Shown: positions 30,229 to 61,860 of the stretch, piece after piece | How the letters are laid out: every line of letters begins with the position of its first letter | How positions within the stretch are numbered: the stretch's first letter is position 1 | Source: Paenibacillus sonchi | GTDB lineage: Bacteria > Bacillota > Bacilli > Paenibacillales > Paenibacillaceae | Direction of reading: 5' to 3' | Assembly: GCF_016772475.1 (NCBI RefSeq) | Contig: NZ_CP068595.1 | Coordinates: 7,378,001 to 7,442,000, forward strand | Length of the DNA: 64,000 nt | Program-made: the position numbers and the translations under genes | The notes under the pieces: generated by a model | The model's input: only the letters and a program-made list of their open reading frames with translations | Databases searched by the model: none | What the model was told of the DNA's origin: nothing

Positions 30229-30292
30229 ATTATAGTGATGGGCATTTCGGCTTGATATAAAGCAATGCAAATACCAATAACGCATTCTAAAT
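30229..30292 (-). promoter_or_regulatory. Promoter module before lplB copy 1
   Basis: On the minus strand TTTATATCA is followed 18 bp later by TATAAT (-10 at 30229-30234), with AATGCGTTATTGGTATTTG upstream. No good -35 hexamer is present. The same arrangement recurs at 32119, 37184, 43886, 45777, 50991, 59837 and 61782, so it is a shared activator-dependent promoter. Confidence 0.7.
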
Positions 30293-30323
30293 ATTATAAT
30301 TATGGAGGCCGGCGTCCAAAAAG

Positions 30324-30359
30324 AGCGGTCTTGATGCGTGAATCCACATCAAGACCGCT
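30324..30359 (-). terminator. Terminator after binding-protein gene copy 1
   Basis: A perfect 13-bp stem with a 10-base loop is followed by CTTTTTGG on the minus strand, 14 bp after the binding-protein stop. It ends or attenuates that transcript before the permease genes. Confidence 0.88.
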
Positions 30360-30372
30360 GATCAATAATAGG

Positions 30373-32085
30373 TTATTTGACGGAATCGTACCATTCATTG
30401 ACTTCTTTAGTAATGGTATCGCCGCCCGAAGACTTCCATTTCTCTACAAATTGATCAAACGCATCCACCGGAGACTGTCCATAGATGATCTTCGAGAATG
30501 TCTCCATTTGCATTTTTTGCAGCAGCTCATTTCTGGACGACATGGTTGACGTTACCGGACCCATGTAATGTTCCTTTACGCGCGAGGATTCTTCATCCAT
30601 GGAAATAAGCATCGCATCGTACACGATTCTTTGTAATGGATTGGTGTCGTCTGCAATCCCAAGAGCTTGCATAAAGGCACGATCTTTCTCGGTGAGTTCT
30701 TCTTTCTTTGCCACTTTTAATGTTATTTCCTTCATCTTTGAGGCAACATCCGGCATGCTTCCAAAAATGTAATCGTTCGAATTAATTTTTCCACCGGGAA
30801 TCTCTTTCTCATCGGTTACAATCTTTCCATCTTTGACAACATATTGGTAGCCCTCCTGAAATCCTTTGAAATATTCAAGCGGATTATCGGATTCGTAGAC
30901 AGCATACATCGAGTTCATATAATGAAAGTAGGCTTGAAGCGCTTCATCCGAAATATCTTTATTGATCACGGTCCCGCCGGATATCGTAAAATAGGTGTGC
31001 AAAGCTGGGCCATTGACCCCATTAGGCAACGGATAGGGTTTGAACATCGCCGTAGGGTTGGTCGCGAGCAGCATGGAACCCGGATATTGGATGAAGAAAG
31101 AAGGCGCTGCGACAATCCCAACCTTATTGGATGTGACCGCGGTGACAATTGTATTGGGGTCATGTAACGCAATATCGCTCGCAAAATACCCTTTATCCTT
31201 CCACTCTTTCATCTTCATTAAGCCCTGCTTGACCCCCGGTAGAATTGAACCATTTTGAAGCTTGCCGTCTTCTCCTGGATACCATCTTTCCGGCATGGCC
31301 CCGTAAAGTCCAAAGATCCAGGCTCCGTCTCCAAGGAGGTTGCCAGTCATCTTATCCTTCATGGCAAAATCCAGGGCAAACGTATCTTTCTGCCCATTAC
31401 CGTCGGGATCCTGATTGACGAAGGCATCCATGACCGTTTCCAGCTCTTCTATTGTAGTAGGTGCTTTCAACTTGAGCTTGTCCAGCCAGTCCTGACGGAT
31501 CCATAAAACGTTGTTTGCTTGCCCGTAATCTGTAGAAGTTCCTGGAATCGCCATCTTTTTACCGTCTCGAGTGACCGATAACCAGGGATCCTTTATATCG
31601 GCTAACGCACTTTTCCAAGTTGGAGAGGCATATTTCTCGAACACTTCTTCCACTTCCATGAACTTGCCCGAATCGATGAGAAGATTGGTGTTAGCGGGAC
31701 TGCCCGACATCACGATATCTGGCAATTCGTCGTTCGCAGAGAGCATGAGTTTCAATTTCGTATCATACGAACCATCCGTACCGCCGCCTGTCCATAAAGT
31801 TTTAATCTGTACGCCAAATTTGTCCTCGGCCCAGCGGGTGAATACATTGTCCGTAACGGATTCCCCTTCTCTATATTTAAAGCCCGGATTTACTCCCATA
31901 ACGGTGGTAAACGACGCTGCCGGTTCGATCTTGCCATTCACGATATTCAGCTTCTTCGTTGCCTCTGGTGTTGCCTCACCCTTCTCGGCCCCGTCGCTGT
32001 TATTTCCATTGCTACAACCGATTAGCGCAGTAGTGAGTAACCCAACAGAAAGAACGGTAGCTAACCATTTTGATTTCATATTCAT
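30373..32085 (-). CDS. ABC solute-binding lipoprotein, LplA type (copy 1)
   Basis: This 570-residue protein has a signal peptide and lipobox (TTALIGCSN), a Gly/Glu-rich linker, and a large periplasmic-binding fold. LMLSANDELPDIVMSG and VLWIRQDWLDKL are typical of the LplA/YtcQ oligosaccharide-binding group. It is lipid-anchored outside the membrane and delivers sugar to LplB/YtcP. The first 50 residues differ from copy 2 (44030-45739), while the mature part is nearly the same; differences cluster in a few short stretches (for example NLLGDGAW versus STLGDGSW) and near the C-terminus. The start follows GGGGGTTTGA. Confidence 0.93.
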   Translation of the reverse strand: MNMKSKWLATVLSVGLLTTALIGCSNGNNSDGAEKGEATPEATKKLNIVNGKIEPAASFTTVMGVNPGFKYREGESVTDNVFTRWAEDKFGVQIKTLWTGGGTDGSYDTKLKLMLSANDELPDIVMSGSPANTNLLIDSGKFMEVEEVFEKYASPTWKSALADIKDPWLSVTRDGKKMAIPGTSTDYGQANNVLWIRQDWLDKLKLKAPTTIEELETVMDAFVNQDPDGNGQKDTFALDFAMKDKMTGNLLGDGAWIFGLYGAMPERWYPGEDGKLQNGSILPGVKQGLMKMKEWKDKGYFASDIALHDPNTIVTAVTSNKVGIVAAPSFFIQYPGSMLLATNPTAMFKPYPLPNGVNGPALHTYFTISGGTVINKDISDEALQAYFHYMNSMYAVYESDNPLEYFKGFQEGYQYVVKDGKIVTDEKEIPGGKINSNDYIFGSMPDVASKMKEITLKVAKKEELTEKDRAFMQALGIADDTNPLQRIVYDAMLISMDEESSRVKEHYMGPVTSTMSSRNELLQKMQMETFSKIIYGQSPVDAFDQFVEKWKSSGGDTITKEVNEWYDSVK

Positions 32086-32118
32086 TCAAACCCCCAAATA
32101 TTTTTTGATTACGCTTTC

Positions 32119-32180
32119 ATTATAGAAACATATTCCCGGCCATGAAATAACGGATAAGCAACATTCGATATCTCAATCCA
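32119..32180 (-). promoter_or_regulatory. Promoter module before binding-protein copy 1
   Basis: The minus strand carries GAGATATCGAATGTTG, then TTATTTCA, then 18 bp, then TATAAT (32119-32124). It is a variant of the module at 30229. Almost the same sequence stands before the relic at 61782. The remaining gap to 32357 shows nothing else. Confidence 0.65.
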
Positions 32181-32357
32181 AACCACAATTCGAAAAATGC
32201 TAACTGTAACTTGTCAACTGTGCTGAATCTTCCTCCCCTGATATTAGCTTGCCAATATCCACACCTGCGTAATCCTGGATACTAAATTGAATCTCTTTAT
32301 TAACACTGGCAATATCTCATTTTAAACTTAATTGAGACTTTGAATAAACAACAAAAA

Positions 32358-32385
32358 GCTGACGTCGTCTATCGTCAACGTCAGC
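32358..32385 (-). terminator. Terminator of the GH43-esterase operon
   Basis: Arms GCTGACGT and ACGTCAGC (8 bp) are followed by TTTTTGTTGTTT on the minus strand, 45 bp after the last esterase gene. Confidence 0.82.
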
Positions 32386-32429
32386 CATAAAGGTTCTATT
32401 TTATCCATTTCAATAGAAATTATTCACAT

Positions 32430-33536
32430 CTAACCTTCAAGTAGGTCCAGACCTGCATCATACACATTTCCATTCACGGCACTCCACAGCCAATCCCGAA
32501 GGCTAGTGCCATGTTTGACCGGACGATAAAATTCGGGGTCGTGAATTAGGGTATGCGTTGTACCCATAGATTCCGAGTACATCTCCCCAATCGGGTTATC
32601 GAATAGGAAGATGCCGATGCCGGGAATTTCGGACTTCAAGGCATCGACCATCTCCTTGAGATCCTTCTCGAATTGCAGACACTGTTCCCGCTTCACTTCT
32701 AAGGTGCCCTGATCAATATAGTGTTGATACATGGCAAAAGCAGTATCTCTAATGGAGTTGATATAAAGATATCGAACGTCATTCCCCTTCTCGGCATAGA
32801 GGGTACGCATCCAGTCAAGGCAGATATTTGGACCCTGGAGCGGCTCCCATATCCGTTCGCTCACCTGCCAGATGTTCTGTGCTATTGTCTTCCACTCGTC
32901 ATTAAGTAACAAAGCGCTATCAGGGCAGCAGGTTACATCACGGCACTCCGGAAAATAACTCATGACATCCGAAGTTAAGGCTGCAGCGCCGAAAGCACCG
33001 CCACTTGTCCCCGTAATCAACAGTTTTGTCGGTGTAGATAGATGTTTCGTCGCTTGCTCCATAAGCCCGCTGTAGTTGGAGTACCCATGATGGTGCAGCA
33101 CCGCAGGGGAGCCGTCTTTTGCTGTATAATGATAATCGCCATTTCCCACATGAAAATCTCCTGTAGCGTAGCTGACGAAGATGAAACTCCAGTTCCTAAA
33201 AGGATTATCCGGTGTGTCATCAAAGATTCCGCGATTAAATGCCAAATCGTTAAATTGCAATGCCTTATCATCAACATAAAAATTCTCTTCTTGCGCACCT
33301 AACCGAGTTGGCCGTGCGGCCGTATAAGCATTCAATGATACGCCTCCCCCCACAAAGAAGACGATAAGCCCCGGCTCCGTTCCTTTACGCATGTAGCCCC
33401 AGTAAGGCGAACCCCCTGCACAAATAGCTCCGGGAACCGGGACTCTATACCACTGACCTGGGTCTGGCACTCCCTCTAACACAGGTAATTGATGCTCTTG
33501 GAGAAATTTTTTATACTCTTCTACATTATCAAACAT
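32430..33536 (-). CDS. Pectinacetylesterase-like hydrolase (paralogue 1)
   Basis: This 368-residue alpha/beta hydrolase resembles the pectinacetylesterase/Notum family. It has an oxyanion GGGVSLNAYTAARP, FVSYATGDFHVGNGDY, a paired-His HHHGYSNYSG, and the nucleophile in ITGTSGGAFGAAAL (Ser in GTSGGAFG). Family members remove acetyl or acyl groups from polysaccharides. There is no signal peptide, so it is cytoplasmic, unlike the secreted pectin enzymes. It is the last gene of an operon with another paralogue, a second hydrolase and a GH43-like enzyme. Further paralogues lie at 33574, 55648 and, as a relic, 51530. Confidence 0.78.
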   Translation of the reverse strand: MFDNVEEYKKFLQEHQLPVLEGVPDPGQWYRVPVPGAICAGGSPYWGYMRKGTEPGLIVFFVGGGVSLNAYTAARPTRLGAQEENFYVDDKALQFNDLAFNRGIFDDTPDNPFRNWSFIFVSYATGDFHVGNGDYHYTAKDGSPAVLHHHGYSNYSGLMEQATKHLSTPTKLLITGTSGGAFGAAALTSDVMSYFPECRDVTCCPDSALLLNDEWKTIAQNIWQVSERIWEPLQGPNICLDWMRTLYAEKGNDVRYLYINSIRDTAFAMYQHYIDQGTLEVKREQCLQFEKDLKEMVDALKSEIPGIGIFLFDNPIGEMYSESMGTTHTLIHDPEFYRPVKHGTSLRDWLWSAVNGNVYDAGLDLLEG

Positions 33537-33573
33537 TAGCTTTCGCTCCTTTAAAGTTTTGGTCCTTTCAACG

Positions 33574-34662
33574 TTACAGCTCTATACTAGAAACGGTTCC
33601 ATTTAGGGCATTCCACAACCATTCCCGTAGACTGACGCCATCTTTGACGGGCTGGAAAAACTCGGGGGTGTGAAGGAAGGTATGCTGTGTACCTAGGAGC
33701 TCCGAATCAAGCCCCGTTTCGGGGGTATCCAGCAGGAATATTCCAATGCCGGGGATTTCGGCCTTCATCACATCGGTCATATCCCTAAGATCCTTTTCGA
33801 ATTGCAGACTCTGTTCCCTCGTAAGCTCCATAGTACCGTGATCAATAAAATGTTGGTACGTGGCCAGCGCACTATCCCTAATGGAGCATATATAGAGATA
33901 CCGAACACTGTCACCCTTCTCAGTGTAGAGGGCTCGCAGCCAGTCAAGGCAAATATTTGGACTGTGCAGCGGATTCCATATCCGTTCATTTGCCTGCCAG
34001 ACATGCTGAGCAACTGCCTGCCAATCGTTATAGAGCATCAAAGAGCTATCCGGGCAGCAGGTCACATCCCGGCACTCCGGGAAATAATCCATGACATCCG
34101 CAGCTAAAGCCGAAGCACCGAAAGCGCCTGCACTGCCGCCGGTGATCAGCAGTTTCGTTGGTGAGGATATAAATTCTTGAGCTTTATCCATAAGCCCCCG
34201 ATAGTTCCGATAGCCATGATGATGCAGCACAGCAGGTGAACCGTCTATTGCTGTATAAGGGTAGTCGCCATTCCCCACATGGAAGTCACCTGTCGTATAG
34301 CTTACCAAGATGCAGCTCCAGTTCCGGAACGGATTATCTTGGGTAGGGTCAAAGATGCCTCGCGTTGCGAATGCATCGATGTACGGCAACGCTTTGCCGT
34401 CAAAATAAAATGTCTCCGATGTCTCATTTAACTTATTGGGACGTGCCGCCATATATGCATTCAGTGATACACCTCCACCGGAGAAATAAACGATAAGGCC
34501 CGGCTCTGTTCCTTTCCGCAGGAACCCCCAGTAAGGCAAGCCATCTGCACTAATTGCTCCGGGAACCGGGAGCCTGTACCATTGTCCGGCTTCCGGCTCC
34601 CCCTCTAATACCGGGAATTGCTCGGGAAAATATTCTCTTAACTCTTCGTCATTTTCAACCAT
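33574..34662 (-). CDS. Pectinacetylesterase-like hydrolase (paralogue 2)
   Basis: This 362-residue paralogue of the neighbouring gene has the same landmarks: VYFSGGGVSLNAYMAARP, VSYTTGDFHVGNGDY, HHHGYRNYRG and the nucleophile elbow ITGGSAGAFGASAL. Two adjacent cysteines (CRDVTCCPDSS) after the elbow are kept in the paralogues at 32430 and 33574. The start follows AAGGAGCGCTGTCAT. The gap to the downstream paralogue is 37 bp. It is cytoplasmic. Side by side with its sister it may act on a different acyl position. Confidence 0.78.
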   Translation of the reverse strand: MVENDEELREYFPEQFPVLEGEPEAGQWYRLPVPGAISADGLPYWGFLRKGTEPGLIVYFSGGGVSLNAYMAARPNKLNETSETFYFDGKALPYIDAFATRGIFDPTQDNPFRNWSCILVSYTTGDFHVGNGDYPYTAIDGSPAVLHHHGYRNYRGLMDKAQEFISSPTKLLITGGSAGAFGASALAADVMDYFPECRDVTCCPDSSLMLYNDWQAVAQHVWQANERIWNPLHSPNICLDWLRALYTEKGDSVRYLYICSIRDSALATYQHFIDHGTMELTREQSLQFEKDLRDMTDVMKAEIPGIGIFLLDTPETGLDSELLGTQHTFLHTPEFFQPVKDGVSLREWLWNALNGTVSSIEL

Positions 34663-34678
34663 ATGACAGCGCTCCTTA

Positions 34679-36034
34679 TTAGATTAATAGCCGGCCTTGG
34701 ATCTCATCCAGTACATCCGCAAGTTCCGGTTTTGCAGCCATTGCTGCACAGAATGTATCGACTAATTCCTCACGATTGTGTTCGCCAAACTCTGACAGCT
34801 CCTCAAGAACCTCCTGACGGTTCATAGCAACCGATCCATAGACGATATCATCGATGCCAGCCTTCCCGGGAATCAGGAATCCTTTCCCCGCATACCGCTC
34901 AGCCATGAGCGCCAACTTCCCGACGGTCAGCCAGTTTGTTTCCCTGGACGACCTCTGAAGCTGTGCATGTATGTAATCAGTGGCGTCAATGGGCCCGAGA
35001 TCCATTTTTTTGAAATGTCCCCCTTCTGCTTCGGCATTGCCTTCATCGAATACAACGATGTTGAAACGTTTGGTTCTATCGAAGGAGAGCTTGAAATTTT
35101 CACCTGATGTTTGCGGTGCCGGACAGAGATGCTCAAATAAATCATCTGCAGGAAGCATTTCAGCCATTGATCGCTGCACCTTTTCTTGAAGCGGAAACTC
35201 CGACATACGGATACGGAATCCCTCGGGAAGGGACTCGTCCAGATCAGCATATGTAAATCGTTTTGTCAATTGATCAACGGGTACCAATAAGTCAGAGGTA
35301 AAATGAGAAAATAATATCGGATCGGTAAAACATCCTGCCATGAAGGATGGAGACATAGCGTTCCAAATCTCACTATTGGGATTCTCCTCGATCTTTGCCA
35401 GAATTGGAGCAAACTGTCCGAAAATGGCACCAACTATAGGCACAGGAATCACTTCCAGGCAGCGGATGAAGTCTTTTCGTTCCTCTTCAGTTAGCGTTTC
35501 CAGAACATCCTTGTTATGATTGTTTGCTGACTGAAGATACTTCATGTTAAACAATATATTTGTAATACCACTGAAGGAAATGGAGCAGCAGATTCCAAGA
35601 TGCAGAACAGACAACATCTGCGTCATATAGCCGCCGGCGCTTCCGCCGCTGACTACGATACGCGTCCGGTCGATGCCAGGCTGCTTCCTGACTGCTGATA
35701 ATGCGGCGCTATTGAATATCAGGTCGTCGTCCACCAGGCTTCCGTTATACTCTGGCTTAAAATCAATCGGTGTCGATACAGCCCAGCCGTTCATCAAATA
35801 AAGGTTCAACGTGGCGTCATTCTCGGGCATTTCGTAATGCGCGATGAACACCAGCGGCTTTGGTTCAGGTGCCGGTTCCGGTAGATAGATACGGATATAA
35901 CGCCGGCATACGGTGCCGTCTTTTGAAATGAACGGAATTTCAATATCCCGTTTCTCAACGGAGAAAGGCAGTTCCTGCTCTTTAACATTTGCTTCCGATA
36001 AAAGAGCCATCACTTTTCGGATATCACGTTTCAT
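34679..36034 (-). CDS. Alpha/beta hydrolase, peptidase S9/acetyl-esterase-like
   Basis: This 451-residue cytoplasmic hydrolase has a beta-sheet-rich N-terminal stretch (about 20-65), the oxyanion region FIAHYEMPEN, and the nucleophile elbow VVSGGSAGGYMTQML near residue 135. A substantial lid domain follows, with a late NIVVFDEGNAEAEGGHFKK that probably carries the catalytic His. The substrate is not clear; its place between a GH43-like enzyme and two pectinacetylesterase-like genes favours an acylated glycan fragment. The start follows GGAGGAACATGT. Confidence 0.75.
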   Translation of the reverse strand: MKRDIRKVMALLSEANVKEQELPFSVEKRDIEIPFISKDGTVCRRYIRIYLPEPAPEPKPLVFIAHYEMPENDATLNLYLMNGWAVSTPIDFKPEYNGSLVDDDLIFNSAALSAVRKQPGIDRTRIVVSGGSAGGYMTQMLSVLHLGICCSISFSGITNILFNMKYLQSANNHNKDVLETLTEEERKDFIRCLEVIPVPIVGAIFGQFAPILAKIEENPNSEIWNAMSPSFMAGCFTDPILFSHFTSDLLVPVDQLTKRFTYADLDESLPEGFRIRMSEFPLQEKVQRSMAEMLPADDLFEHLCPAPQTSGENFKLSFDRTKRFNIVVFDEGNAEAEGGHFKKMDLGPIDATDYIHAQLQRSSRETNWLTVGKLALMAERYAGKGFLIPGKAGIDDIVYGSVAMNRQEVLEELSEFGEHNREELVDTFCAAMAAKPELADVLDEIQGRLLI

Positions 36035-36058
36035 ACATGTTCCTCCTCCGCTCCAGGA

Positions 36059-37110: not shown

Positions 37111-37183
37111 AGATGATTTGGATCCTTTCTTGATATCAGATTTTAGTCATATGCTGACAAATCTATACTTACCTCACAGCTTA

Positions 37184-37250
37184 ATTATAGGTTCCTGTAT
37201 TTACGCGTTGATATAAAGGAATCCAAACATATATATCTCATTTCTAATAT
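37184..37250 (-). promoter_or_regulatory. Promoter module before the GH43-esterase operon
   Basis: On the minus strand GAGATATATATGTTTGG, ATTCC and TTTATATCA are followed after 19 bp by TATAAT (37184-37189). It is one of the best examples of the recurrent module. It lies back to back with the promoter of the response regulator gene at 37359. Confidence 0.75.
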
Positions 37251-37275
37251 GCGGCTGAATTCCAATCTATAGACA

Positions 37276-37304
37276 TTGCAAGCCGGCCAACAGATTCATA
37301 TAAT
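37276..37304 (+). promoter_or_regulatory. Promoter of the response regulator gene
   Basis: A -35 TTGCAA (37276-37281), a 17-bp spacer and a -10 TATAAT (37299-37304) are present. The 22 bp at 37294-37315 are identical to 45930-45951 before the kinase gene. Confidence 0.75.
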
Positions 37305-37358
37305 GGGGTTACCTCAAGCAGAAATGGGAGATCAGCAACCAACCGGAGGAATCAAATT

Positions 37359-38969
37359 ATGTACCAACTGCTTATCGTTGACGACGAAACCTCGGTCGTA
37401 GACAGTCTGGCAATGACTGTGCAATGGAAGGATTATGGAATAGAAGAGGTTCATTGTGCATACTCGGCTCAAGAAGCACTGCTCATTGCGGCCAAGCATT
37501 CGATAGACATTATGATCACTGACATTCAGATGCCTGAAATGTCCGGATTGGAATTGATCGAAGTGATACAGCATTATTCGCGCAAAATCCGCTGTATCAT
37601 TCTTTCGGGCCATGACGAGTTTGAATATGCCAGGAAAGCCATGGCTTATCAGACACTGGATTACTTGCTGAAGCCAATCGATTATACAGAGTTAATTAAC
37701 TCTGTTAAGAAAGCGATTCAGCAGGTGGAAGAGGAGTGGAAGGAAGTGATATCCTTCCAGCGCATTAAGCAAACGCTGGAGGCTAATCTCCCGCTACTGC
37801 GGTCACAGCTGCTTAACGACCTGCTCAAGAACAAGATCATCCGCCATGAGGTTTTGGAAGAGAGACTTGCTCTGGTAGGCGTTCCCTTCCGGTTCGATGA
37901 CCCCTACATGATGATGGTTGTTCGCATGGAGGAGGACTTCTCAGGGTACGACCTTCAATCCTTATCGCTCCTTGAATATGCCGTAACAAACATTGCTGAT
38001 GAAGTGTTCCAAAAACTGTTCAGTTTATGGCATTGTGTCACCGAGCAGGGATATTTAGTTTTTCTCATCAAAGGCAACCAGCAAGACGCTTTGCATTTGG
38101 TGGATTCGTTCGCAGTAAAGCTGCAGAATCATGTCCAAAAATTCCTGAAAGGCTCACTCTCAATCTGCCTAAGCAATATCGCCAAGTTTCCTGGCGACCT
38201 GCAAAACTTATATCTGGCTGCAATCAACGCCATTAACCGGAATATCGGAAATAATAAAAGCTTCTTCCTGACCATTAATGAAAAAAGTGAGCAGCCTCAG
38301 AGCTCCATCATCAAAAAATTATATGCTCCGCCTGCACTTTCAACGCTGCTGGACTCAGGCAACTGGGACGAGGCGATTGCCAAGATCGATGAATTGCTCG
38401 TTGTCGGCGGCAATGCAGACGAACAATCTCACGATCTTTCACAGGATCAATTATTTACGGTGCTGCTATATCTCTCATCCTCATTCACGATGTGTTTCCA
38501 ACCCAATGGGTCCAGTCTATATGATCAGATGGGACCAGAATTCGATTTGTTGCTCCGCAAGAAGGGACATCTTTCAAGACAACGAATCTATGACTGGGCC
38601 AGTAAAATTATAGCAGCACTAAAAGCTAAGACGTCGACTCAAATGGAGAATGCGCAACAGCAGATTGCCGCTAAAGTCCGGACGTTTATTCATGAACATT
38701 TGTCCGAGGGGATTTCACTGCAAATCATTGCCGACCATGTGGGGCTGCATCCTGTTTATCTCTCCAAAATTTACAAGACGGTTATGAATGAAACGATTGG
38801 TGATTATATTTTTCAATTTCGAATGGAAAGAGCCATACATCTCCTGCGAAATACCGACTTAAAAATAGCTGAAATCAGCGATCAGCTGGGCTTTCAGGCC
38901 ACCCCCCATTTCATTAAAATTTTCAAAGAACATTTTGGCACGACGCCGCAGGACTACCGGAATCGTTAA
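37359..38969 (+). CDS. AraC-type response regulator (YesN-like)
   Basis: This 536-residue protein has a receiver domain at 1-120 with phospho-acceptor Asp55 in IMITDIQMPEMSG, a long linker with predicted helices, and the AraC double helix-turn-helix at about 435-536 (LQIIADHVGLHPVYLSKIYKTV, FQATPHFIKIFKEHFGTTPQDYR). The start follows CCGGAGGAATCAAATT. No kinase gene adjoins it; the likely partner is at 45971-47647, whose promoter shares a 22-bp identical block. It is divergent from the GH43-esterase operon and is the best candidate to bind the recurrent promoter module. Confidence 0.93.
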   Translation: MYQLLIVDDETSVVDSLAMTVQWKDYGIEEVHCAYSAQEALLIAAKHSIDIMITDIQMPEMSGLELIEVIQHYSRKIRCIILSGHDEFEYARKAMAYQTLDYLLKPIDYTELINSVKKAIQQVEEEWKEVISFQRIKQTLEANLPLLRSQLLNDLLKNKIIRHEVLEERLALVGVPFRFDDPYMMMVVRMEEDFSGYDLQSLSLLEYAVTNIADEVFQKLFSLWHCVTEQGYLVFLIKGNQQDALHLVDSFAVKLQNHVQKFLKGSLSICLSNIAKFPGDLQNLYLAAINAINRNIGNNKSFFLTINEKSEQPQSSIIKKLYAPPALSTLLDSGNWDEAIAKIDELLVVGGNADEQSHDLSQDQLFTVLLYLSSSFTMCFQPNGSSLYDQMGPEFDLLLRKKGHLSRQRIYDWASKIIAALKAKTSTQMENAQQQIAAKVRTFIHEHLSEGISLQIIADHVGLHPVYLSKIYKTVMNETIGDYIFQFRMERAIHLLRNTDLKIAEISDQLGFQATPHFIKIFKEHFGTTPQDYRNR

Positions 38970-38997
38970 GCTTATACTTATTGATCAATTACGCGCG

Positions 38998-43885: not shown

Positions 43886-43950
43886 ATTATAGTGATGGGC
43901 ATTTCGGCTTGATATAAAGCAATGCAAATACCAATAACGCATTCTAAATA
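43886..43950 (-). promoter_or_regulatory. Promoter module before lplB copy 2
   Basis: It is nearly identical to the module at 30229-30292 (TTTATATCA, 18 bp, TATAAT at 43886-43891) because it lies inside the duplicated segment. Confidence 0.7.
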
Positions 43951-45776: not shown

Positions 45777-45842
45777 ATTATAAAAATTCGCATACGGTTA
45801 TTAAATAACGCTTTCGCAACATCACATATCGTATTCTAAACA
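45777..45842 (-). promoter_or_regulatory. Promoter module before binding-protein copy 2
   Basis: On the minus strand ACGATATGTGATGTTG and TTATTTAA are followed after 18 bp by TATAAT (45777-45782). It lies outside the duplicated block but keeps the same layout. Confidence 0.6.
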
Positions 45843-45911
45843 GGCGTGATAGCGGAATTTAAACATCAATATCGCATTCCAAAGTTATGTTCATATTCCA
45901 AGTGATACGCA

Positions 45912-45940
45912 TTGCCACTAGAAGCACAAATTCATATAAT
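45912..45940 (+). promoter_or_regulatory. Promoter of the kinase gene
   Basis: A -35 TTGCCA, a 17-bp spacer and a -10 TATAAT (45935-45940) are present. The 22 bp at 45930-45951 are identical to the regulator promoter at 37294-37315. Confidence 0.75.
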
Positions 45941-45970: not shown

Positions 45971-47647
45971 ATGTTAAAGCAATATCGAACCTTTCTCAGC
46001 GCGGTAATTATTATTTTATTTTCAACGATAGTTGTCTTGATGATGTATTCTTACACCGTGGAGACTAGTTTAAGCACTGTGAAAAAGGATATTGAAACGA
46101 ACAACCTGAACCGACTGCGTATCTTGGTCAATTCCTTAGATTACAATGTTGAGCAGCTTGACATGCTGTCTGTTGCTCTAAATGCGGACTCCAAAATGGG
46201 GCTGCTGAAATCTGTGGACCTGATGGATAATTACGATCAGGATCAGCTTATGCTTGATCTCTCGGACAAAATGAAACTGCAAAGCTTTACACAGGGCTGG
46301 AATGTCCAAATTGACATTTACTCAACCCTGCTGAACAAATGGGTAGGTTCATCTCAAAACCAGTCACCCCCACCAGCTGACTTGGCAGAAGGGCAATGGA
46401 TATTGGATAGGTCACAAAAGTTATTCTCCATGTACAGGAAATATGATCAGTTTACGGTTCGGGTAACCTTTCCTAAGGCTAATTTGGAAAATATGCTAGA
46501 CTCGGCCAAGTTAGAAAATAATGATCCCTTTTTTTATTACTCTGATTCCATCATCATAGCAAACCGTTCCTTTCATACCACTCAAGTCCAGGAACTGGTC
46601 TCCAAAATGTCACCAAAGATGCGGGATAAAAACGAAGGAACCGAGTTAATAACAGCCGGTAATATAGATTATATGGTCAGTTTTTTGAAAGCGGAAACAT
46701 TAGGTTGGTACATGGTGGATTATGTTCCTCTGGACAAAGCGCTCCAACCCATTGTAAGGACACAAGTCTTCTTTTACATCACCTGTGTTCTGTTATTTTT
46801 GTCCGGAATGGTAACGGTCATTTTTTTCTACCGGAAAGTACAAGTCCCCATTCTCACCTTGCTGAAAGGTGTCCGTCATCTACAAAAGGGCGACTTCTCG
46901 CACCGGATCAGCAGAACGTCCAATGCTGAGTTTGCTATTCTTTATCACAATTTCAACCATATGGCACAGCAAATCGAAGACTTGATTGAAAATGTATACA
47001 AAGAAAAAATCATTTCAAGAGAAGCATTGGTTAAACAACTGCAGGCTCAAATTAACCCGCATTTTTTATATAATTGCCTGTTCTTTATCAACAATATGAA
47101 CCGTATGGGAAATGACGAAGCTGTGAATGCCATGACCCAGAACCTGGCTGAATATTTCAGGTATACAACGCGGATTAACGATCCGCTTACCACCCTTGAA
47201 AAAGAAATTGGCGTTGTCCGTAATTATCTTAATATCCAGAGTTTGCGAATCAACCGCCTGCATACGCAAATCAATATTCCGGAATCCATGATGTCCTTGC
47301 TTGTTCCCAAGCTGCTTATTCAACCGTTGGTAGAGAACAGCGTAATTCACGGAATTGAGAAGAAGCAAAGTGCCGGGCTTATCCACATATCCGGTACTGA
47401 CGTTGGAGACCGGTACTCTTTGGTTGTAGAAGACGACGGGAGAGGCATGCAGCCGGAAGAGATCCAGAGCCTGCTGCACCGTATTGAACAACCGCTGGAT
47501 GAGACAATGGGCTGCGCCTTATGGAACATACGGCAACGAATGCTTATTCAGCTAGGCTCCAAAGCGAGCTTAAATATTGCTCAGAGTAAGCTAGGTGGAA
47601 TTCGCACTGAGCTGATCTGGGATAAAAGCAGCCAACCAGAGGAATAG
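45971..47647 (+). CDS. Sensor histidine kinase (YesM-like)
   Basis: This 558-residue membrane kinase has a first helix at about 10-30, an extracellular sensor region to about 255, a second helix (VFFYITCVLLFLSGMVTVIFF), and HAMP (PILTLLKGVRHLQKGDFSHRI). The His_kinase motif is QAQINPHFLYNCLFFINNM and the ATPase motif VEDDGRGMQ; the final Gly-rich box is weak (MGCALWNIRQRM). I chose ATG 45971 (AAAGG 9 bp upstream), because an earlier ATG at 45887 lies upstream of the promoter. Its regulator is probably the one at 37359-38969, 7 kb away and with a matching promoter. Confidence 0.92.
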   Translation: MLKQYRTFLSAVIIILFSTIVVLMMYSYTVETSLSTVKKDIETNNLNRLRILVNSLDYNVEQLDMLSVALNADSKMGLLKSVDLMDNYDQDQLMLDLSDKMKLQSFTQGWNVQIDIYSTLLNKWVGSSQNQSPPPADLAEGQWILDRSQKLFSMYRKYDQFTVRVTFPKANLENMLDSAKLENNDPFFYYSDSIIIANRSFHTTQVQELVSKMSPKMRDKNEGTELITAGNIDYMVSFLKAETLGWYMVDYVPLDKALQPIVRTQVFFYITCVLLFLSGMVTVIFFYRKVQVPILTLLKGVRHLQKGDFSHRISRTSNAEFAILYHNFNHMAQQIEDLIENVYKEKIISREALVKQLQAQINPHFLYNCLFFINNMNRMGNDEAVNAMTQNLAEYFRYTTRINDPLTTLEKEIGVVRNYLNIQSLRINRLHTQINIPESMMSLLVPKLLIQPLVENSVIHGIEKKQSAGLIHISGTDVGDRYSLVVEDDGRGMQPEEIQSLLHRIEQPLDETMGCALWNIRQRMLIQLGSKASLNIAQSKLGGIRTELIWDKSSQPEE

Positions 47648-50990: not shown

Positions 50991-51055
50991 ATTATAGGTC
51001 CCCCCAATTATTCGATGATATAAAGGAATTCAAACATTCGTATCGCATTTTAAGT
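50991..51055 (-). promoter_or_regulatory. Promoter module before the solitary GH3
   Basis: On the minus strand GCGATACGAATGTTTG, AATTCC and TTTATATCA are followed after 19 bp by TATAAT (50991-50996). It borders the IS630 relic. Confidence 0.72.
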
Positions 51056-53096: not shown

Positions 53097-53101
53097 ATCA
53101 T

Positions 53102-55609: not shown

Positions 55610-55647
55610 TCTCCTTTTATTAAAAAGTATGGTGGCGTAAAAATTAT

Positions 55648-56757
55648 TTATGCGTCAAGAAGTTCCATACCTACATCGGAAACCGTATCATTCACGGCAC
55701 TCCACAGCCAATCCCGCAGGCTGATGCCGCCTTTGACTGGACGGGAAAATTCGGGATCGTGGATCAGCGTATGCATTGTCCCCATTAACTCTGGTTGTAA
55801 ATTCTCAGTCGGGTTCTCGAACAGAAAAAAACTAATGCCGGGGATCTCATTCTTCAGCGTATCAACCATCTCTTTGAGATCCTTCTGGAATTTCAGGCAG
55901 TGTTCCCTCGTAATTTCCATAGTGCCACGATCAATATAGTGTTGATACATTGCGAAAGCACTATCTCTAATGGAATTAACATATAGATACCGTACACCAT
56001 CCCCCTTCTCGGCATAGAGGGCGCGCAGCCAATCAAGAGTAATATTTGGACCCTGAAGCTGCTTCCAAATTTTTTCGTTCGACTGCCAGACATTTTGGGC
56101 TATTGTATTCCATTGGTCATAAAGAAGCAAAGCACTGTCAGGGCAGACAGTTACATCACGGCAATTAGGAAAATAACTCATGACGTCTGAGGCCAGAGCT
56201 GAAGCACCGAAGGCGCCCCCGCTTGTGCCGGTAATTAGCAGTTTTGCTGGTGTTGAAAGATGCTTTACTGCTTGCTCCATAAGCCCGCTGTAATTGGTGT
56301 AGCCATGATGATGCAGCACAGCTGGAGATCCGTCCGGTGCTGTATAGTGATAATCGCCATTTCCCACATGAAAATCACCTGTAGCATAGCTGACAAAGAT
56401 GCAGCTCCAGTTCCGGAAAGGATTCTCCGGCGCATCATCAAATATTCCCCGGTCAAATGCCGCATCGTTAAACGGTAATGAATTCTCGTCAAAATAAAAA
56501 TTCTCACCCGGTACACTTAGCCGTGTTGGCCGCGCTGCCGTATATGCATTAAGTGATACGCCTCCACCTAGGAAGAACACAATGAGGCCTGACTCTGTTC
56601 CTTTTCTCAGATATCCCCAGTAAGGAGATCCTCCTGCACAAGTAGCTCCTGGAACCGGGACTCTATACCACTTTCCTGGATCTGGTACACCCTCCAATAC
56701 TGGTAACTGATGCTCTTGCAGATACTTTTTATATGCTTCAATATTATTATCCAACAT
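55648..56757 (-). CDS. Pectinacetylesterase-like hydrolase (paralogue 3)
   Basis: This 369-residue protein starts at ATG 56757 (AAAGGAGC, 7 bp spacing); the frame extends ten codons further without a site. The landmarks are as in the other paralogues: FFLGGGVSLNAYTAARP, VSYATGDFHVGNGDYHY, HHHGYTNYSG, ITGTSGGAFGASAL. It is closer to paralogue 1 (32430) than to paralogue 2. The Cys-Cys after the elbow is reduced to one Cys here (CRDVTVCPDS). It is cytoplasmic and is followed after 38 bp by GH3. Confidence 0.8.
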   Translation of the reverse strand: MLDNNIEAYKKYLQEHQLPVLEGVPDPGKWYRVPVPGATCAGGSPYWGYLRKGTESGLIVFFLGGGVSLNAYTAARPTRLSVPGENFYFDENSLPFNDAAFDRGIFDDAPENPFRNWSCIFVSYATGDFHVGNGDYHYTAPDGSPAVLHHHGYTNYSGLMEQAVKHLSTPAKLLITGTSGGAFGASALASDVMSYFPNCRDVTVCPDSALLLYDQWNTIAQNVWQSNEKIWKQLQGPNITLDWLRALYAEKGDGVRYLYVNSIRDSAFAMYQHYIDRGTMEITREHCLKFQKDLKEMVDTLKNEIPGISFFLFENPTENLQPELMGTMHTLIHDPEFSRPVKGGISLRDWLWSAVNDTVSDVGMELLDA

Positions 56758-56861
56758 AAGCTTCGCTCCTTTAAAGTTATTCTCCAATACAAAAAAGCGT
56801 GTTCATAATTGGCTCTAAAATAGAGTTAGTCATTCCGCTCTAACTACACTCTCACTTTTCC

Positions 56862-56922
56862 TGATAACGCTCCCATCCATACAAATACTTTCCAATAATG
56901 GAATCCAAACATGCATTTTGAA
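56862..56922 (-). promoter_or_regulatory. Degenerate promoter module between two esterase genes
   Basis: GCATGTTTGGATTCCATTAT on the minus strand matches the upstream half of the module at 37184. No TATAAT follows at the proper distance, so it is partial or inactive. Confidence 0.35.
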
Positions 56923-58080
56923 TCAAAGCTCGCGAATCGCTTTGACGATTTCGACGGCGCAATCCTCACTCTGTGGAACAATGCCGAATGTACTGTTGCC
57001 AACACTGCTATGGGTCTGACCTTTATAACGGATAATCCGCACAGGAACATTCGCCTTGGCCAGCTGGCTGCCATAAAATTCACCTTGAAGGCGAAGTGCG
57101 TCAAATTCGCTGGTGATGATCAGAGCCGGCGGCAGGCCCGTAAAATTTCCTGCCAGCATGGGTGACGCATACGGATCTGATGGATCGGCATCTCCCAGAT
57201 AACCAGCTATCATGATATCCATATGCGGATCATGTTGGGGGTCCTTAATCTCAGGGACGAACCTTTGTGTCTCAGGTGCAACAGTAAATTGAGACGGATC
57301 CCATGTATAGCCAGCGGCGGTTCCATCCTTTGCTAAAAGAACTGCAGGAACCATCGGAATTTGCAATGCAATCAAGGGAAGACCTTCGTCCCGGGCCCGG
57401 AGCGCGAGTGCAGTGGTATAATTGCCGCCCGCACTTCCGCCTCCTACAGCGATCCTGTTCTTATCAACACCATAAACTTCTGAATGTTCGTGAATGTGCT
57501 TCAAGACGTTATAGCAATCATTCAGGCCATTTGGATACTGGAACTCCGGTGACAGGGAATAATCAATATCAAATACTACTGCATCCGCTTTTTCGGCAAT
57601 GTATCTCAAGAAATTATCGTTCCCTCTGGGATGGCCCGCAAACCAGCCTCCGCCGTGAATATGAATGAAGGAGGGGCGCAATCCGCTTTCATCACCAGGT
57701 ACATTGTAACGCCAGAGTCCTACCCGGTTTCCGTGAAGCATCAGCTCCTCCAGTTGTACGTCGATATCGCGTTCAAATAACTCTTCCTTGAAAGTAGAAT
57801 CAGAAGCCGAACCTTCCATCACATTACGAAGGGCAACCAAAAATTGCTCTGGACTCATTTGGCTCATCATTGCATCCAGTGTTGCGTTTGTGTTCTCTGT
57901 AATAGCTCCATCAGCCCGGGTAAGTGCTGCCGGATTAATGGTTTCAATTACCCATGGATCCATATAACCCTCCCGCTCTTCGCCGGGAATCTTTTTGACC
58001 TGGATAGTAACTCCGTTTAACTCAACAGTTTCATAATTATCCTGCAAGTGTTTAAGATCCGATTCATCATATTTCCTCAT
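56923..58080 (-). CDS. HSL-family alpha/beta hydrolase (esterase)
   Basis: This 385-residue cytoplasmic esterase of the hormone-sensitive-lipase group has oxyanion motif HIHGGGWFAGHPRG, nucleophile elbow VGGGSAGGNYTTAL near 215, acid region ITSEFDALRLQGEFY and a late His in GQTHSSVG. The N-terminal cap of about 130 residues fits the family. The start follows AGGGAGGATAGTT, 29 bp after the carboxylesterase. It probably removes short acyl groups. Confidence 0.9.
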   Translation of the reverse strand: MRKYDESDLKHLQDNYETVELNGVTIQVKKIPGEEREGYMDPWVIETINPAALTRADGAITENTNATLDAMMSQMSPEQFLVALRNVMEGSASDSTFKEELFERDIDVQLEELMLHGNRVGLWRYNVPGDESGLRPSFIHIHGGGWFAGHPRGNDNFLRYIAEKADAVVFDIDYSLSPEFQYPNGLNDCYNVLKHIHEHSEVYGVDKNRIAVGGGSAGGNYTTALALRARDEGLPLIALQIPMVPAVLLAKDGTAAGYTWDPSQFTVAPETQRFVPEIKDPQHDPHMDIMIAGYLGDADPSDPYASPMLAGNFTGLPPALIITSEFDALRLQGEFYGSQLAKANVPVRIIRYKGQTHSSVGNSTFGIVPQSEDCAVEIVKAIREL

Positions 58081-58109
58081 AACTATCCTCCCTAAATAAT
58101 ATTGTCTAC

Positions 58110-59711
58110 TTAAAAGAGTGCCAGAATATCGTGAATAGTTTTAAAGGGATCATATTTCCAGGTACATTTCTCGTCAAATAACATTGTTTTCTTATCTTCC
58201 ACGGTGAATTCAGGCCAATCCAGCTCATCCGTTTCCGGAGAACCGGTCCGGACAAAAGAAGCAAAGGAATGCGCCAAGAGCCGTGAAAGCTTCTCAGCTT
58301 CTTCATGATAAACAGCACGAAAAATCAATGGTAATTCAGCTGTATGCCACGCACAAGCCAAACCTTCCATGCCAGGTATCGGAGTATCATAGGTCGTCAT
58401 ATAATGCCATACCGGCGCAGTCTTTTGCCCTGCTTTTGCAATGGCCGATTTATAGGCTCCCCCTCCTAGAAAATGACGCATGGAAACAATTTGCACTAAA
58501 ATCTGCCATGGACGTTTTTGGTCGTTGCACGCATTCCGGAAGGTCTGGATTAGCGTGTCTACATTACTTTCTGACAGGCCTTTTAAGGATTGCACCTCCG
58601 CAAATTCTTGATTAAGCAGTTCTGTTCTTGCATCTTCCCAAGTCATCTTCGGATTCTTTAATAAGTCCATATGCAGTTCTTCCTCTGAAGCACCTACCAG
58701 AAGCGGCACCTCTGCTGAAACAGCATAGGCTTTATACTCACGTTCAACATTAAATGGAATATGTACCCCATCCGGTGTTGGATAAAAAGGAGTAGTGTCT
58801 TCCTGTATCAACCTTAACCCTCGAAGACTATCCGTTATCGTTTCTGCAGGTAATTCCAGAAGCTTTCTCCAGTCCTCTTTTGCAATCCCCAATTGTTCCA
58901 AAACTTTCAAGGTTTCTGCCGTCCCTTGTTCTTTTGTTTTGGCTCCGATCGGAATGGATCCGCTAATATTAATTGCTTTTGAAAACAGGCCTTTTGCAGC
59001 AGGCATCGCCATCAGGTGTCCGATTTTTATTCCGCCGCCGGATTCACCAATTAAAGTAACATTAGCTGGATCACCGCCAAACTTTTGAACATTGTTCTTG
59101 ACCCACTGCAGAGCCATAACCAGGTCTAACTGCCCTACAAGTCCAGAATTAGCGTATGCCTCATCAAACTCTCCAAGATACAGTCCGCCAAAAATATTTA
59201 ATCTATGATTAACGGTCACAATCACTACGTCTTCTTCATCCACCAACGAATCACAAATGGCTGCGGTTACTGCACCCGAGCCGGATGTATAACCACCGCC
59301 ATGAATATAAACCATGACCGGCCGTTTTTTCTCATCAACTCCAGGAGTTACCACGTTCAGTACTAAGCAATTCTCATCGCAATATTCTTTACTCTTGTCA
59401 AATGGAATACCTCCGGTAAAATGATTCCCATAATCCAGCAGTATTTTTCTCACTGGTTCCGGTACTCCTTCAAGTGACCCCTGCTCTTGCATTGCAATAG
59501 GACCGTAACGCGTGCAATCCCATATACCGTCCCATTGAAGAGCGGGACGGGGCTCTTTGAAGCGGTATTCTCCATCGCAGTTGTCACCATAGGGAATCCC
59601 TAAAAAAACACCATTCCCATTCCGATTAAACCCTTTGATTTTCCCGGTATTAATCTCTACAACCGGATTAGCTTCCTTAACCAGTGACCACCCTTTTTCT
59701 CCATATTTCAT
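58110..59711 (-). CDS. Type-B carboxylesterase
   Basis: This 533-residue protein has the family signatures TGKIKGFNRNGNGVFLGIPYG, VMVYIHGGGYTSGSG and nucleophile elbow LIGESGGGIKIG near 228. The acid region is near residue 335 (SEEELHMD), and the catalytic His near 438 (LACAWHTAELPLIF). It has no signal peptide. It is the first gene of a cluster behind promoter module 59837. The family cleaves diverse carboxyl esters; acylated glycosides are likely here from the context. The start follows GGGAGAGTTGCTTCT. Confidence 0.92.
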   Translation of the reverse strand: MKYGEKGWSLVKEANPVVEINTGKIKGFNRNGNGVFLGIPYGDNCDGEYRFKEPRPALQWDGIWDCTRYGPIAMQEQGSLEGVPEPVRKILLDYGNHFTGGIPFDKSKEYCDENCLVLNVVTPGVDEKKRPVMVYIHGGGYTSGSGAVTAAICDSLVDEEDVVIVTVNHRLNIFGGLYLGEFDEAYANSGLVGQLDLVMALQWVKNNVQKFGGDPANVTLIGESGGGIKIGHLMAMPAAKGLFSKAINISGSIPIGAKTKEQGTAETLKVLEQLGIAKEDWRKLLELPAETITDSLRGLRLIQEDTTPFYPTPDGVHIPFNVEREYKAYAVSAEVPLLVGASEEELHMDLLKNPKMTWEDARTELLNQEFAEVQSLKGLSESNVDTLIQTFRNACNDQKRPWQILVQIVSMRHFLGGGAYKSAIAKAGQKTAPVWHYMTTYDTPIPGMEGLACAWHTAELPLIFRAVYHEEAEKLSRLLAHSFASFVRTGSPETDELDWPEFTVEDKKTMLFDEKCTWKYDPFKTIHDILALF

Positions 59712-59836
59712 AGAAGCAACTCTCCCAATCCTAATCCAGCACTTTGGATGAAGTTCTTATTTCCTAACATTTTATATCTTTCACTTTTTTCGTAAACCAT
59801 CCTACTGCTCCCCTCATTTTCATCGGTCACAATATA

Positions 59837-59897
59837 ATTATAGGTCCGGGTATTTAGCGGTTGATATAGAGGAATATAAACATACATATCTCGTTAT
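59837..59897 (-). promoter_or_regulatory. Promoter module before the carboxylesterase cluster
   Basis: On the minus strand GAGATATGTATGTTTA, ATTCC and TCTATATCA are followed after 19 bp by TATAAT (59837-59842), with GGACC just before the -10, as in two other copies. Confidence 0.73.
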
Positions 59898-59919
59898 TAA
59901 GTTGTCGGTACACAATTAT

Positions 59920-59953
59920 AAAAAAAGCTGACGCCATTGTACTTCGCGTCAGC
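59920..59953 (-). terminator. Terminator of the tannase gene
   Basis: Arms GCTGACGC and GCGTCAGC (8 bp, 11-base loop) are followed on the minus strand by seven Ts, 55 bp after the stop. Confidence 0.85.
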
Positions 59954-60008
59954 AAAGCTAGTATCTTTGCCTGTATGATAAATTATCTCATTTAACTGAG
60001 TTGTACCA

Positions 60009-61559
60009 TCAAGCCAGGTACTCGGGAGCAGGTTTTGGAAAATCCCCAAAGATCCGTTTCTCTTTCCTATAATTTTCCGGATTATTCGGATCTCCCGATT
60101 CATATACCGCTTGGTTCGGATAGGCGTATACAGGCCTTTCATATTCGTATTCGTCTAATAAAAAACCATTCAGCAAAGAGCTATTTTTAAAGGCAACAGG
60201 AAGTAGCCGTTCTGGAGCAATCCCCTCTTCTACCCATAAGGAAAGTGCGGTAAGCGCGTCATGCTCTCTATCCTTGGGCGTTGCCCGGAATCCGATTCCA
60301 ATGTCCTGAACGCCTGGACCATCGAAGACATGAGCAAGCCCCGGGATGATGAAATACCGAAAGAACGATTGCGTATTCTCTAGACCGTTCTGTGCTTCGA
60401 TCACCCGCTCATAGTATTGTAGGGAGTCCGTGTACGGAATAATCGGGTCGGCCGTGCCGTGCAGCATGATGATTTTTCCGCCGGCGTTCTTAAAATCCTG
60501 CAATTCTGTGCTATTTGCATTAAGAATCGGGGCCAACTGTTCGTCAACGAAATCTACATCATGATTAAAATCAAACTTCGTGAAGTCAAAGTCTTTGCCG
60601 AAAATCCAGCGGAATAGATAAAGAAAACCTTTAGCAAACTCATCCTTATTGCTTTGAGCGGAAAGCCCCAAAGGAAAACGCTCGCTGCCATGTACATTAA
60701 CCGGAGCAAAAATCCGTTCTCCTGTTACTGGGTTTACAGGACCGTTATAGATGATTTCCAATGCACGGATCTGTGTATCATTCAACAGTTTACCGTCTTT
60801 AAAAATATTCGTATTAACGGTTATCTGATCTGGCTGTGCCATAAAATGGTCTCCAGGGATGCATCCGCCTTCGGCGCCGTAATGCGCAAGGATCTGCTCC
60901 GTAACGGTTGCAGCCTGTTGTTCGTCAAACCCGGCATCCGGATCCTGGGTTAAGGCCAGCCAATTCCATATGAAAGCAATGTGTAAATGCGTACGATTAT
61001 TGGCTGGTGCCGTTGCCAGAATCCCATTGTAATCTTCCGGATACCGTTGTGCCTCCATAAGGCCTTGCTGACCACCAGTGGAGCCTCCTGTAAAATAAGA
61101 AAATTTAGGCGCTCTACCATAAAACGCTTTAATAATTTCCTTTGCAACGACTGTCATAAGGTGCGTTGCCCGATAACCGAAATCAACCCATCTTTCCGGC
61201 TTACCTATAAGCGTATCCGGGTCCGGGGAGGTCCCCATATCTGTATTGGCTGTAGCATATCCGCGACGGATTCCATTAATCAAAGAAAATCGGTCTATGG
61301 TACCTGCGTGGCCCCCGTTTCCAGTCCCCAGGAAGTTACTGTTCCAATCGGTGAGTGGCATCCATACTTCGATCAAAATATTCGATTCGCCTTCCGGGTT
61401 CAATCGAACGCAAACGCGACAGTACTCTGGAAGTGGTTGCAACGGCAAGTTAAGACCGAAATCCGGCACACCAGCTTGCACAAATTCGAATTTTGTAATT
61501 TCTCCATTTTTAATTATCAGGGATTCCAGTTTCCCTCTTGCTTCGTGTTCAATTAACAT
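60009..61559 (-). CDS. Tannase/feruloyl-esterase family protein
   Basis: This 516-residue protein of the tannase family (PF07519) has ILIEVWMPLTDWNSNFLGTG, elbow FTGGSTGGQQGLMEAQRYP (nucleophile Ser) near 165, and ALEIIYNGPVNPVTGER. The C-terminal acid and His regions are MLHGTADPIIPYTD and IPGLAHVFDGPG. The family hydrolyses phenolic esters such as galloyl or feruloyl groups. There is no signal peptide, so it would act on imported phenolic esters. The start follows AGAGGGGGCATAGAC. Its promoter is probably the module at 61782, inherited from a deleted binding-protein gene. Confidence 0.88.
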   Translation of the reverse strand: MLIEHEARGKLESLIIKNGEITKFEFVQAGVPDFGLNLPLQPLPEYCRVCVRLNPEGESNILIEVWMPLTDWNSNFLGTGNGGHAGTIDRFSLINGIRRGYATANTDMGTSPDPDTLIGKPERWVDFGYRATHLMTVVAKEIIKAFYGRAPKFSYFTGGSTGGQQGLMEAQRYPEDYNGILATAPANNRTHLHIAFIWNWLALTQDPDAGFDEQQAATVTEQILAHYGAEGGCIPGDHFMAQPDQITVNTNIFKDGKLLNDTQIRALEIIYNGPVNPVTGERIFAPVNVHGSERFPLGLSAQSNKDEFAKGFLYLFRWIFGKDFDFTKFDFNHDVDFVDEQLAPILNANSTELQDFKNAGGKIIMLHGTADPIIPYTDSLQYYERVIEAQNGLENTQSFFRYFIIPGLAHVFDGPGVQDIGIGFRATPKDREHDALTALSLWVEEGIAPERLLPVAFKNSSLLNGFLLDEYEYERPVYAYPNQAVYESGDPNNPENYRKEKRIFGDFPKPAPEYLA

Positions 61560-61631
61560 GTCTATGCCCCCTCTCGCTTTTTCAATCTAATTTTAAGAGC
61601 CTCTTCGCTCTTCTAATGACCTATCACAAAG

Positions 61632-61860
61632 AATGCTTGTTTTTAAGCAGTAGCTTATTTCTGGACGACAAGGTGGACGCTACCGGACCATGTAATGTTC
61701 CCTTTACACGCGAGGATTCTTTAGCAGTTTTGAGCATCCCAACAGAAAGAACAGCAGCTACCCATTTTTAATTACGCTTTCATTATAGAAATATATTATC
61801 AGCCATGAAATAACGGATAAGCAACATTCGATATCTCATTCCAAACAACCATTCAGATAG
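61632..61860 (-). pseudogene. Relic of a third LplA-type binding-protein gene with its promoter
   Basis: 61632-61712 matches the 3' part of copy 1 (around 30505-30590). 61724-61860 matches its 5' end and promoter (around 32030-32170). The internal 1.4 kb is missing. The promoter module is well kept (GAGATATCGAATGTTG, TTATTTCA, 18 bp, TATAAT at 61782-61787). Reading frame is lost. The scar sits right before the tannase gene, which it may now drive. Confidence 0.8.

Follow-up and report, generated by a model that had tools for sequence, protein, structure and literature searches.

Direct-repeat operators in a plant-glycoside gene cluster of Paenibacillus sonchi look like docking sites for one YesN-type two-component activator

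The YesMN-type two-component systems described in Firmicutes include the pneumococcal TCS07 (YesMN) and TCS09 (YesNM), and the available part of that account ties TCS07 to host glycan genes, gives a candidate RR07 motif, [CTWWWWWWAG]-N39-60-TSS (TSS, transcription start site), and for YesN mentions a candidate motif, no clear repeat having been found (PMC11034029). In the accessible portion of work on XydS/XydR of Clostridium cellulolyticum, an AraC-type response regulator acts on a plant-polymer gene cluster, its promoters are predicted with clear -35 boxes, and a consensus AraC/XylS site was not identifiable (PMC3572039). Here we analyse a stretch of 64,000 nucleotides (the window; G000:C1:7378001-7442000) from the 7.78-Mb genome of the soil bacterium Paenibacillus sonchi, in which a gene cluster for the uptake and cutting of plant glycosides carries about a dozen copies of one operator. 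Its kinase and regulator are of the YesM/YesN type, as in TCS07 and TCS09. Unlike the RR07 motif as given in that text, the operator repeats directly at 20-21 bp and keeps a tight distance to the -10 box. The likeness to XydS/XydR lies in the AraC-type response regulator on a plant-polymer cluster, and the difference in the -35 boxes. Judged by their anatomy, these switches may be where a single two-component activator docks. No description of this motif, or of a Paenibacillus YesN operator, was found in the literature searched, which included the available parts of PMC10766802, PMC11034029 and PMC3572039, most subscription literature being outside reach. We regard the operator and its regulon as new, although of a known kind (an AraC-type site of a YesMN system), and as kept across four genera.

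A sequence-only reading of the window had placed eight such sites on the minus strand, and all eight were found there, at positions that are the ends of their TATAAT boxes. They share the form GATAT-N2/3-ATGTT-N9-TTATNTCA-N18/19-TATAAT, with GTTAT and GTATT at 30229 and 43886, GATAC at 50991, CTATATCA at 59837 and the end TTTAA at 45777. In other words, one operator consists of two half-sites, roughly TTTAGAATGCGATAT and TTTGGATTCCTTTATATCA, repeated directly 20-21 bp apart. The inner half-site ends 18-19 bp before TATAAT and therefore covers the -35 position, which is the arrangement in 8/8 window sites that have a -10 box (all predicted promoters). The same reading had seen no good -35, and this holds for 12 of the 13 site clusters, in which the best match to TTGACA is 2-4 of six bases, but not for one site in Paenibacillus sp. 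OVF10, in which it is 5 of six. In Escherichia coli, the AraC half-sites araI1-I2 at pBAD are direct repeats about 21 bp apart, the inner one abutting the -35 box. The half-site geometry is the same as here and the -35 placement may be, whereas the sequence differs, and AraC is bound by its ligand and is no response regulator. Half-sites repeated directly at about 20-21 bp are one mark of an AraC-type class II operator.

All eight sites are real, but they are not independent, and about five promoters remain when copies are grouped: 30229 and 43886 are copies of one permease promoter, and 32119, 45777 and 61782 form one binding-protein promoter family, of which 45777 is the more diverged member. 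On the other hand, "at least eight" understated the number: three further sites follow beyond the right edge of the window, and a pair that has no -10 lies beside the kinase gene. The three lie in the adjoining stretch L075 (C1:7442001-7462000) at 5034(-), 7561(-) and, more weakly, 11600(+), with scores from 51.6 to 27.3 bits. One of them precedes a gene with BD-FAE and SLH domains, and another precedes a short open reading frame (ORF), whose lactamase match is below threshold, and then an alpha/beta-hydrolase gene; no ORF of at least 150 aa lies closely downstream of the third, and a similar site in the relative G021 (L088:64) precedes a GH2 gene. With the pair that has no -10, the half-sites upstream of the binding-protein gene SBP2 number four, an arrangement that recurs in L059, L176, L180 and L184.

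A matrix built from the window sites gives them 48-58 bits, against a maximum of 21.4 in 40 Markov-2 simulations of the window. Because training and scoring on the same sites is circular, one of the five promoter groups was left out at a time; every held-out site then scored above all 2,468,460 control positions, the weakest (45777) by a thin margin (17.1 vs 16.1). A matrix scan of the genome, which had been proposed as a check, gave no match of at least 20 bits (maximum 17.4) in a control of 60 stretches that overlap slightly and add up to 1.2 Mb, 47 of which cover the other YesM-kinase loci. Over the whole genome, the pattern GATAT-N3-ATGTT-N9-TTATNTCA with up to three mismatches has 28 places, compared with 19 for its reversed control: the three with 0-1 mismatches are all in the cluster, none has two, and 25 have three. 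A stricter class-A pattern has four places, all inside the cluster, and its reversed form none. The matrix scan and the pattern searches therefore indicate that the regulon is local. Equal frequency of the motif elsewhere, named earlier as a ground against a common regulator, was seen neither in these scans nor with patterns in 394 genomes (below). A generalisation to other YesMN loci, based on direct repeats before TATAAT on strands around YesM loci and on other strands, was dropped as not convincing (16 same-geometry repeats in 1.88 Mb of strands vs 2 in 0.52 Mb).

The probable activator named in the sequence-only reading, encoded at 37359-38969 (RR1), has a receiver (PF00072, 6.7e-24), a GGDEF-like middle domain and a C-terminal AraC helix-turn-helix (HTH; PF12833, 1.1e-19), and comparative evidence strongly supports its link to the operator. 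A search of 394 Paenibacillaceae genomes gave 20 RR1 matches at E<=1e-170, in 4 of 19 genera, and the operator is present in all 20 loci, weakly in three. The regulators of Paenibacillus pabuli NBRC 13638 and OVF10 (G222 and G257; identical gene coordinates, counted once) are 94% identical each. Fifteen further loci of 20 kb were chosen solely by their RR1 orthologue (54-66% identity), with no motif criterion, and scored with a second matrix, whose training drew on G113 and part of the other four earlier loci, so that the new loci were unseen. All 15 have a paired operator of at least 24 bits (38 sites; best per locus 24.1-53.6), whereas the control for this matrix reaches 23.2 in 1.2 Mb, with two matches of at least 20. 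By contrast, the best score in eight paralogue loci (34-45% identity; 14 stretches) is 20.0, within the control, and G032, whose regulator is 45% identical, has no operator above control upstream of its kinase. Because all the loci were chosen for RR1, the informative part is this difference between orthologue and paralogue loci. It supports the earlier proposal of one AraC-type activator, probably RR1.

An ORF of at least 120 aa starts within 350 bp downstream of 39 of the 40 sites in relatives (including two of G113), and many of these sites precede homologues of cluster genes (permB, SBP, GH78, GH3). Patterns for the two operator forms match 5 and 5 of the 394 genomes, their reversed controls none; nine of the ten positive genomes have RR1 (Fisher p about 3e-12, kinship uncorrected), and the second pattern, written after the RR1 loci had been seen, has 7/7 places within them.

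The kinase gene HK1 was taken as ORF 45887-47647 for the Pfam search (PF06580, 1.6e-21; HAMP, 3.3e-8; HATPase_c, 1.1e-6), but 45971 is the better start because a promoter lies between the two and because its relatives have MLKQYRTF or MFKQYRTF in common but not the stretch ahead of it. Read by eye, HK1 has the expected HFLYN, and RR1 has D55 and the K105 region. The two genes are 7 kb apart in the window, so that the adjacency of kinase and regulator, usual but not obligatory for YesMN, is absent. In 10 of 16 relative loci, RR1 has an HK1 homologue as its immediate neighbour, which makes HK1 the likely cognate kinase. Both genes have promoters back to back with operator-bearing operons: the GH43 operator ends 28 bp upstream of the RR1 -35, and the same distance separates the HK1 -35 from the end of the pair 45845-45883 upstream of it. 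Among PDB sequences, the RR1 receiver matches 6swf, 6swb, 3cu5 and 6swl, and its HTH matches SoxS (7w5w), 12aw, 6swi, 3oou and 3lsg ("yesN"); only separate domains match, and the likeness is by sequence alone. We take the 6sw series to be Geobacillus regulators.

From the anatomy and from knowledge of the family we infer that RR1, the AraC-type response regulator of a YesMN system, very probably has its operators in these sites; HK1 would phosphorylate it, and it would recruit polymerase. HK1 would sense some ligand, and this is probably an oligosaccharide or glycoside that the SBP/permease set handles. Two DNA-binding domains of phosphorylated RR1 would then occupy the head-to-tail half-sites, 20-21 bp or two helical turns apart, the inner one over the -35 position, and RNA polymerase would be recruited to a good -10 with a mostly unusable -35. 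HK1 and RR1 themselves would be made from ordinary-looking sigma-A-type promoters, and because these have no operator in that position, the switch would exist ahead of any induction. The divergent operators end 28 bp from the two -35 boxes, on the upstream side, and may affect those promoters somewhat. What the computations themselves show is the sites, their direct-repeat geometry, their co-occurrence with RR1, and a regulon that keeps to a single gene cluster and is transferred between genera together with its regulator.

Several observations weigh against this assignment to RR1. In G217, G218 and G271 the sole site scores 24.1 bits, barely above the control, and its -10 is poor; weak -10 boxes (TAAACT, TACACT) occur among the relatives. 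The strict patterns together recover only 9 of the 20 RR1 genomes, so that the operator is far from invariant. For the remaining 6 of the 16 relative loci, HK1 either lies apart from RR1 or was not seen in the sequence fetched. The window holds a second YesMN pair (268-3163), near which the scan found no operator; cross-talk with it may occur. Finally, G021 has six operators and HK1 (89%), but no RR1 better than 35%. This last case would suit a different regulator, either the second YesMN pair or a stand-alone AraC protein, that binds the operator while RR1 merely travels along, and the window does encode other AraC-type proteins (268-1419, 8825-9694, 15610-16587, 21813-22901). However, these genes lie outside the transferred segment 23250-60677, and what recurs beside operators in the 16 relative loci is RR1, HK1, permeases, SBP, GH3, GH78 and BD-FAE (34 window proteins compared, 8825-9694 not among them, the best match per place being kept). 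Together with the presence of operators in RR1-selected loci and their absence above control in the eight paralogue loci, this makes another regulator improbable.

The likeness of the sites might also reflect recent duplication of promoters and nothing else, as 30229/43886 and 32119/61782 are near copies of each other, and the spacers of 37184 and 59837 share pieces (AAATAC, G-ACC). Yet about five promoters have the common operator though most spacers between operator and -10 differ, and relatives at 54-66% RR1 identity retain both the geometry and the half-site core; duplication without a common regulator is hardly credible. A repressor role of RR1, or a use of the sites in looping or in the divergent control of HK1 and RR1, would fit the covering of the -35 position and the pair 45845-45883, which has no -10 and sits 28 bp from the HK1 -35. 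The targets, however, mostly have no -35, as expected where an activator is needed, and the operator has a nearly uniform position relative to the -10, so that we consider these roles very unlikely, if somewhat less so than duplication alone.

In the 13 site clusters (80% identity), the half-sites agree at 10.0 of 19 positions at offset 20, allowing a one-base difference in the gap. Position shuffles give 5.6 +/- 1.05 and none of 5000 reaches 10.0, a generous figure given that the register was chosen by eye; the other direct offsets from 12 to 33, which are the fairer control, give at most 6.9. An inverted repeat (GATAT...ATATC) was rejected, its best alignment giving 7.8 of 19 vs 10.0 for the direct one. 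In relatives, the half-sites share 9.8 of 15 positions vs 4.6 +/- 1.06 (37 distinct sites from 15 relatives and G113); these sites were picked by a two-half matrix and so support the direct repeat rather than prove it. Their consensus is a cleaner direct repeat, TTAAGATTGCGTTAT - N5/6 - TTTAGATTGCGTTATATCG.

Two main forms occur in the cluster, one with gap 2 and spacer 19 and one with gap 3 and spacer 18. Gap and spacer add up to 21 in 11 of the 13 site clusters, and the distance from the outer half-site to the -10 is thus fixed. The inner half slides by 1 bp and the spacer compensates, which would suggest that contact with polymerase is set by the outer subunit rather than by the subunit on the -35, in a self-contained regulon whose regulator, operators and targets move between genera together. 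If true, the operator may reveal which RR1 subunit touches RNA polymerase. In the relatives, however, the sum is 21 in 33 of 40 sites, 29 of which have one form (gap 3, spacer 18), and 5 of the 9 gap-2 sites have spacer 18, i.e., no compensation. For these reasons we have lowered our estimate of an outer-subunit contact from somewhat unlikely to unlikely.

The cluster, its switches and its regulator genes seem to have moved recently between distantly related bacteria. Blocks 23250-41931, 42585-51300, 51854-56904 and 56915-60677 are 96.8-98.3% identical to G258, which belongs to another genus in the set, whereas the rpoB regions are 80.6% identical over 4181 bp. Since the cluster is far more alike than the rpoB region, and since operators, kinase, regulator and targets all lie within the segment, regulon and regulator appear to have moved together. 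Outside the segment, identity to G258 drops to 83% at 62164-63484 and to 83-92% in the regulon parts of L075. Cluster pieces of G021 and G257 are 90.8-98.4% identical, again vs 80.6% for the rpoB region, and at least two recent transfers seem to be needed. To the right of the cluster, an integrase (tyrosine-recombinase) gene followed by ParA- and ParB-like genes (L075:13680-17197; G000:C1:7455680-7459197) is possibly the edge of an integrative element. No homologue of these genes was found in the fetched parts of the other carriers, and no tRNA gene that might bound an island in the window, L075 or L093. Operators also show turnover: the PAE3 operator is intact in G258 (L176:5872; 48.6 bits) and a 23-base remnant here (14.5 bits), and the tannase gene stands behind a fragment of a binding-protein promoter. 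Next to the intact PAE3 operator, at about L176:5803 (minus) and far from kinase and regulator genes, there is a copy of an HK1/RR1-type promoter (TTGCCA-17-TATAATGGGGTT), a hint that the operator may have spread in a single cassette with the divergent promoter.

On its contig, G021 has the order HK1-SBP-permB-permC-GH3b with a direct junction. This order fits a deletion between permease copies of the segment that holds RR1, and G021 has perhaps lost RR1 in this way, either by a natural deletion or by loss in an assembly of 170 contigs. GH43 is also missing there, but it is missing in G113 too and is therefore a weak pointer. In the window, 30229-32085 and 43886-45739 are duplicated binding-protein/permease promoters and genes, and the RR1 segment could be lost when the permease copies recombine, as seems to have happened in G021. 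There are many YesMN systems in Paenibacillus, since this genome alone has 59 PF06580 matches. Here one regulator comes with a defined operator, its transfer appears recent and one carrier seems to lack it, which makes specificity, cognate kinase and target set directly testable.

Table 1. Positions in the window of the candidate regulator genes, their promoters, the operators and the segment shared with G258
Feature	Position	Strand	Basis or remark
Apparently transferred segment	23250..60677	.	High DNA identity to G258
RR1, YesN-type response regulator, candidate activator	37359..38969	+	Pfam; footprinting across genomes
HK1, YesM-type histidine kinase, candidate cognate kinase	45971..47647	+	PF06580, HAMP, HATPase_c
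RR1 promoter TTGCAA-17-TATAAT(GGGGTTACCTC)	37276..37304	+	
HK1 promoter TTGCCA-17-TATAAT(GGGGTTACCTC)	45912..45940	+	
Operator (outer and inner) and -10 before permB1-permC1-GH78-GH3	30229..30291	-	Operator identical to 43886
Operator and -10 before binding-protein gene SBP1 (30373-32085)	32119..32182	-	
Operator and -10 before GH43, S9-like hydrolase and two pectinacetylesterase-domain genes (36904-32430)	37184..37247	-	Pfam for genes
Operator and -10 before permB2-permC2-GH3 (43845-39058)	43886..43948	-	
Operator and -10 before the SBP2 binding-protein gene (ORF to 44030, start probably at 45739)	45777..45840	-	
Ninth pair, no -10, 44 bp upstream of the SBP2 operator, beside the kinase gene	45845..45883	-	
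Operator and -10 before split GH3 gene (50881-48180)	50991..51054	-	
Operator and -10 before carboxylesterase, alpha/beta hydrolase, PAE-domain, GH3 and BD-FAE genes (59711-52068)	59837..59900	-	
Operator and -10, binding-protein promoter fragment, upstream of tannase/feruloyl-esterase gene (61559-60009)	61782..61845	-	
23-base operator remnant	56894..56916	-	100% match to L176:5868-5890, flanks missing on both sides

Between 23 and 63 kb of the window lie a permease pair in two copies and genes for binding proteins, for glycosidases of families GH3, GH43 and GH78, and for many esterases (pectinacetylesterase (PAE) domain, BD-FAE, tannase/feruloyl esterase, carboxylesterase). This gene content would suit a substrate with rhamnose and ester groups, e.g., a pectin fragment or an acylated plant glycoside. 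The GH3 gene at 48180-50881 consists here of two ORFs in two frames and is a single open frame in G258 and G021, which means either a frameshift or a sequence error. In the OVF10 cluster (L059 / L183-L185), many genes (SBP1, permC, GH3, tannase) match in several pieces, as if frameshifted, while three of them, SBP1, GH3 and tannase, give whole matches in P. pabuli; the sequence of the OVF10 cluster is likely to be of low quality. The predicted aldolase and pfkB ORFs at 16665-18708 overlap by 77 bases, so that one of their starts is probably wrong.

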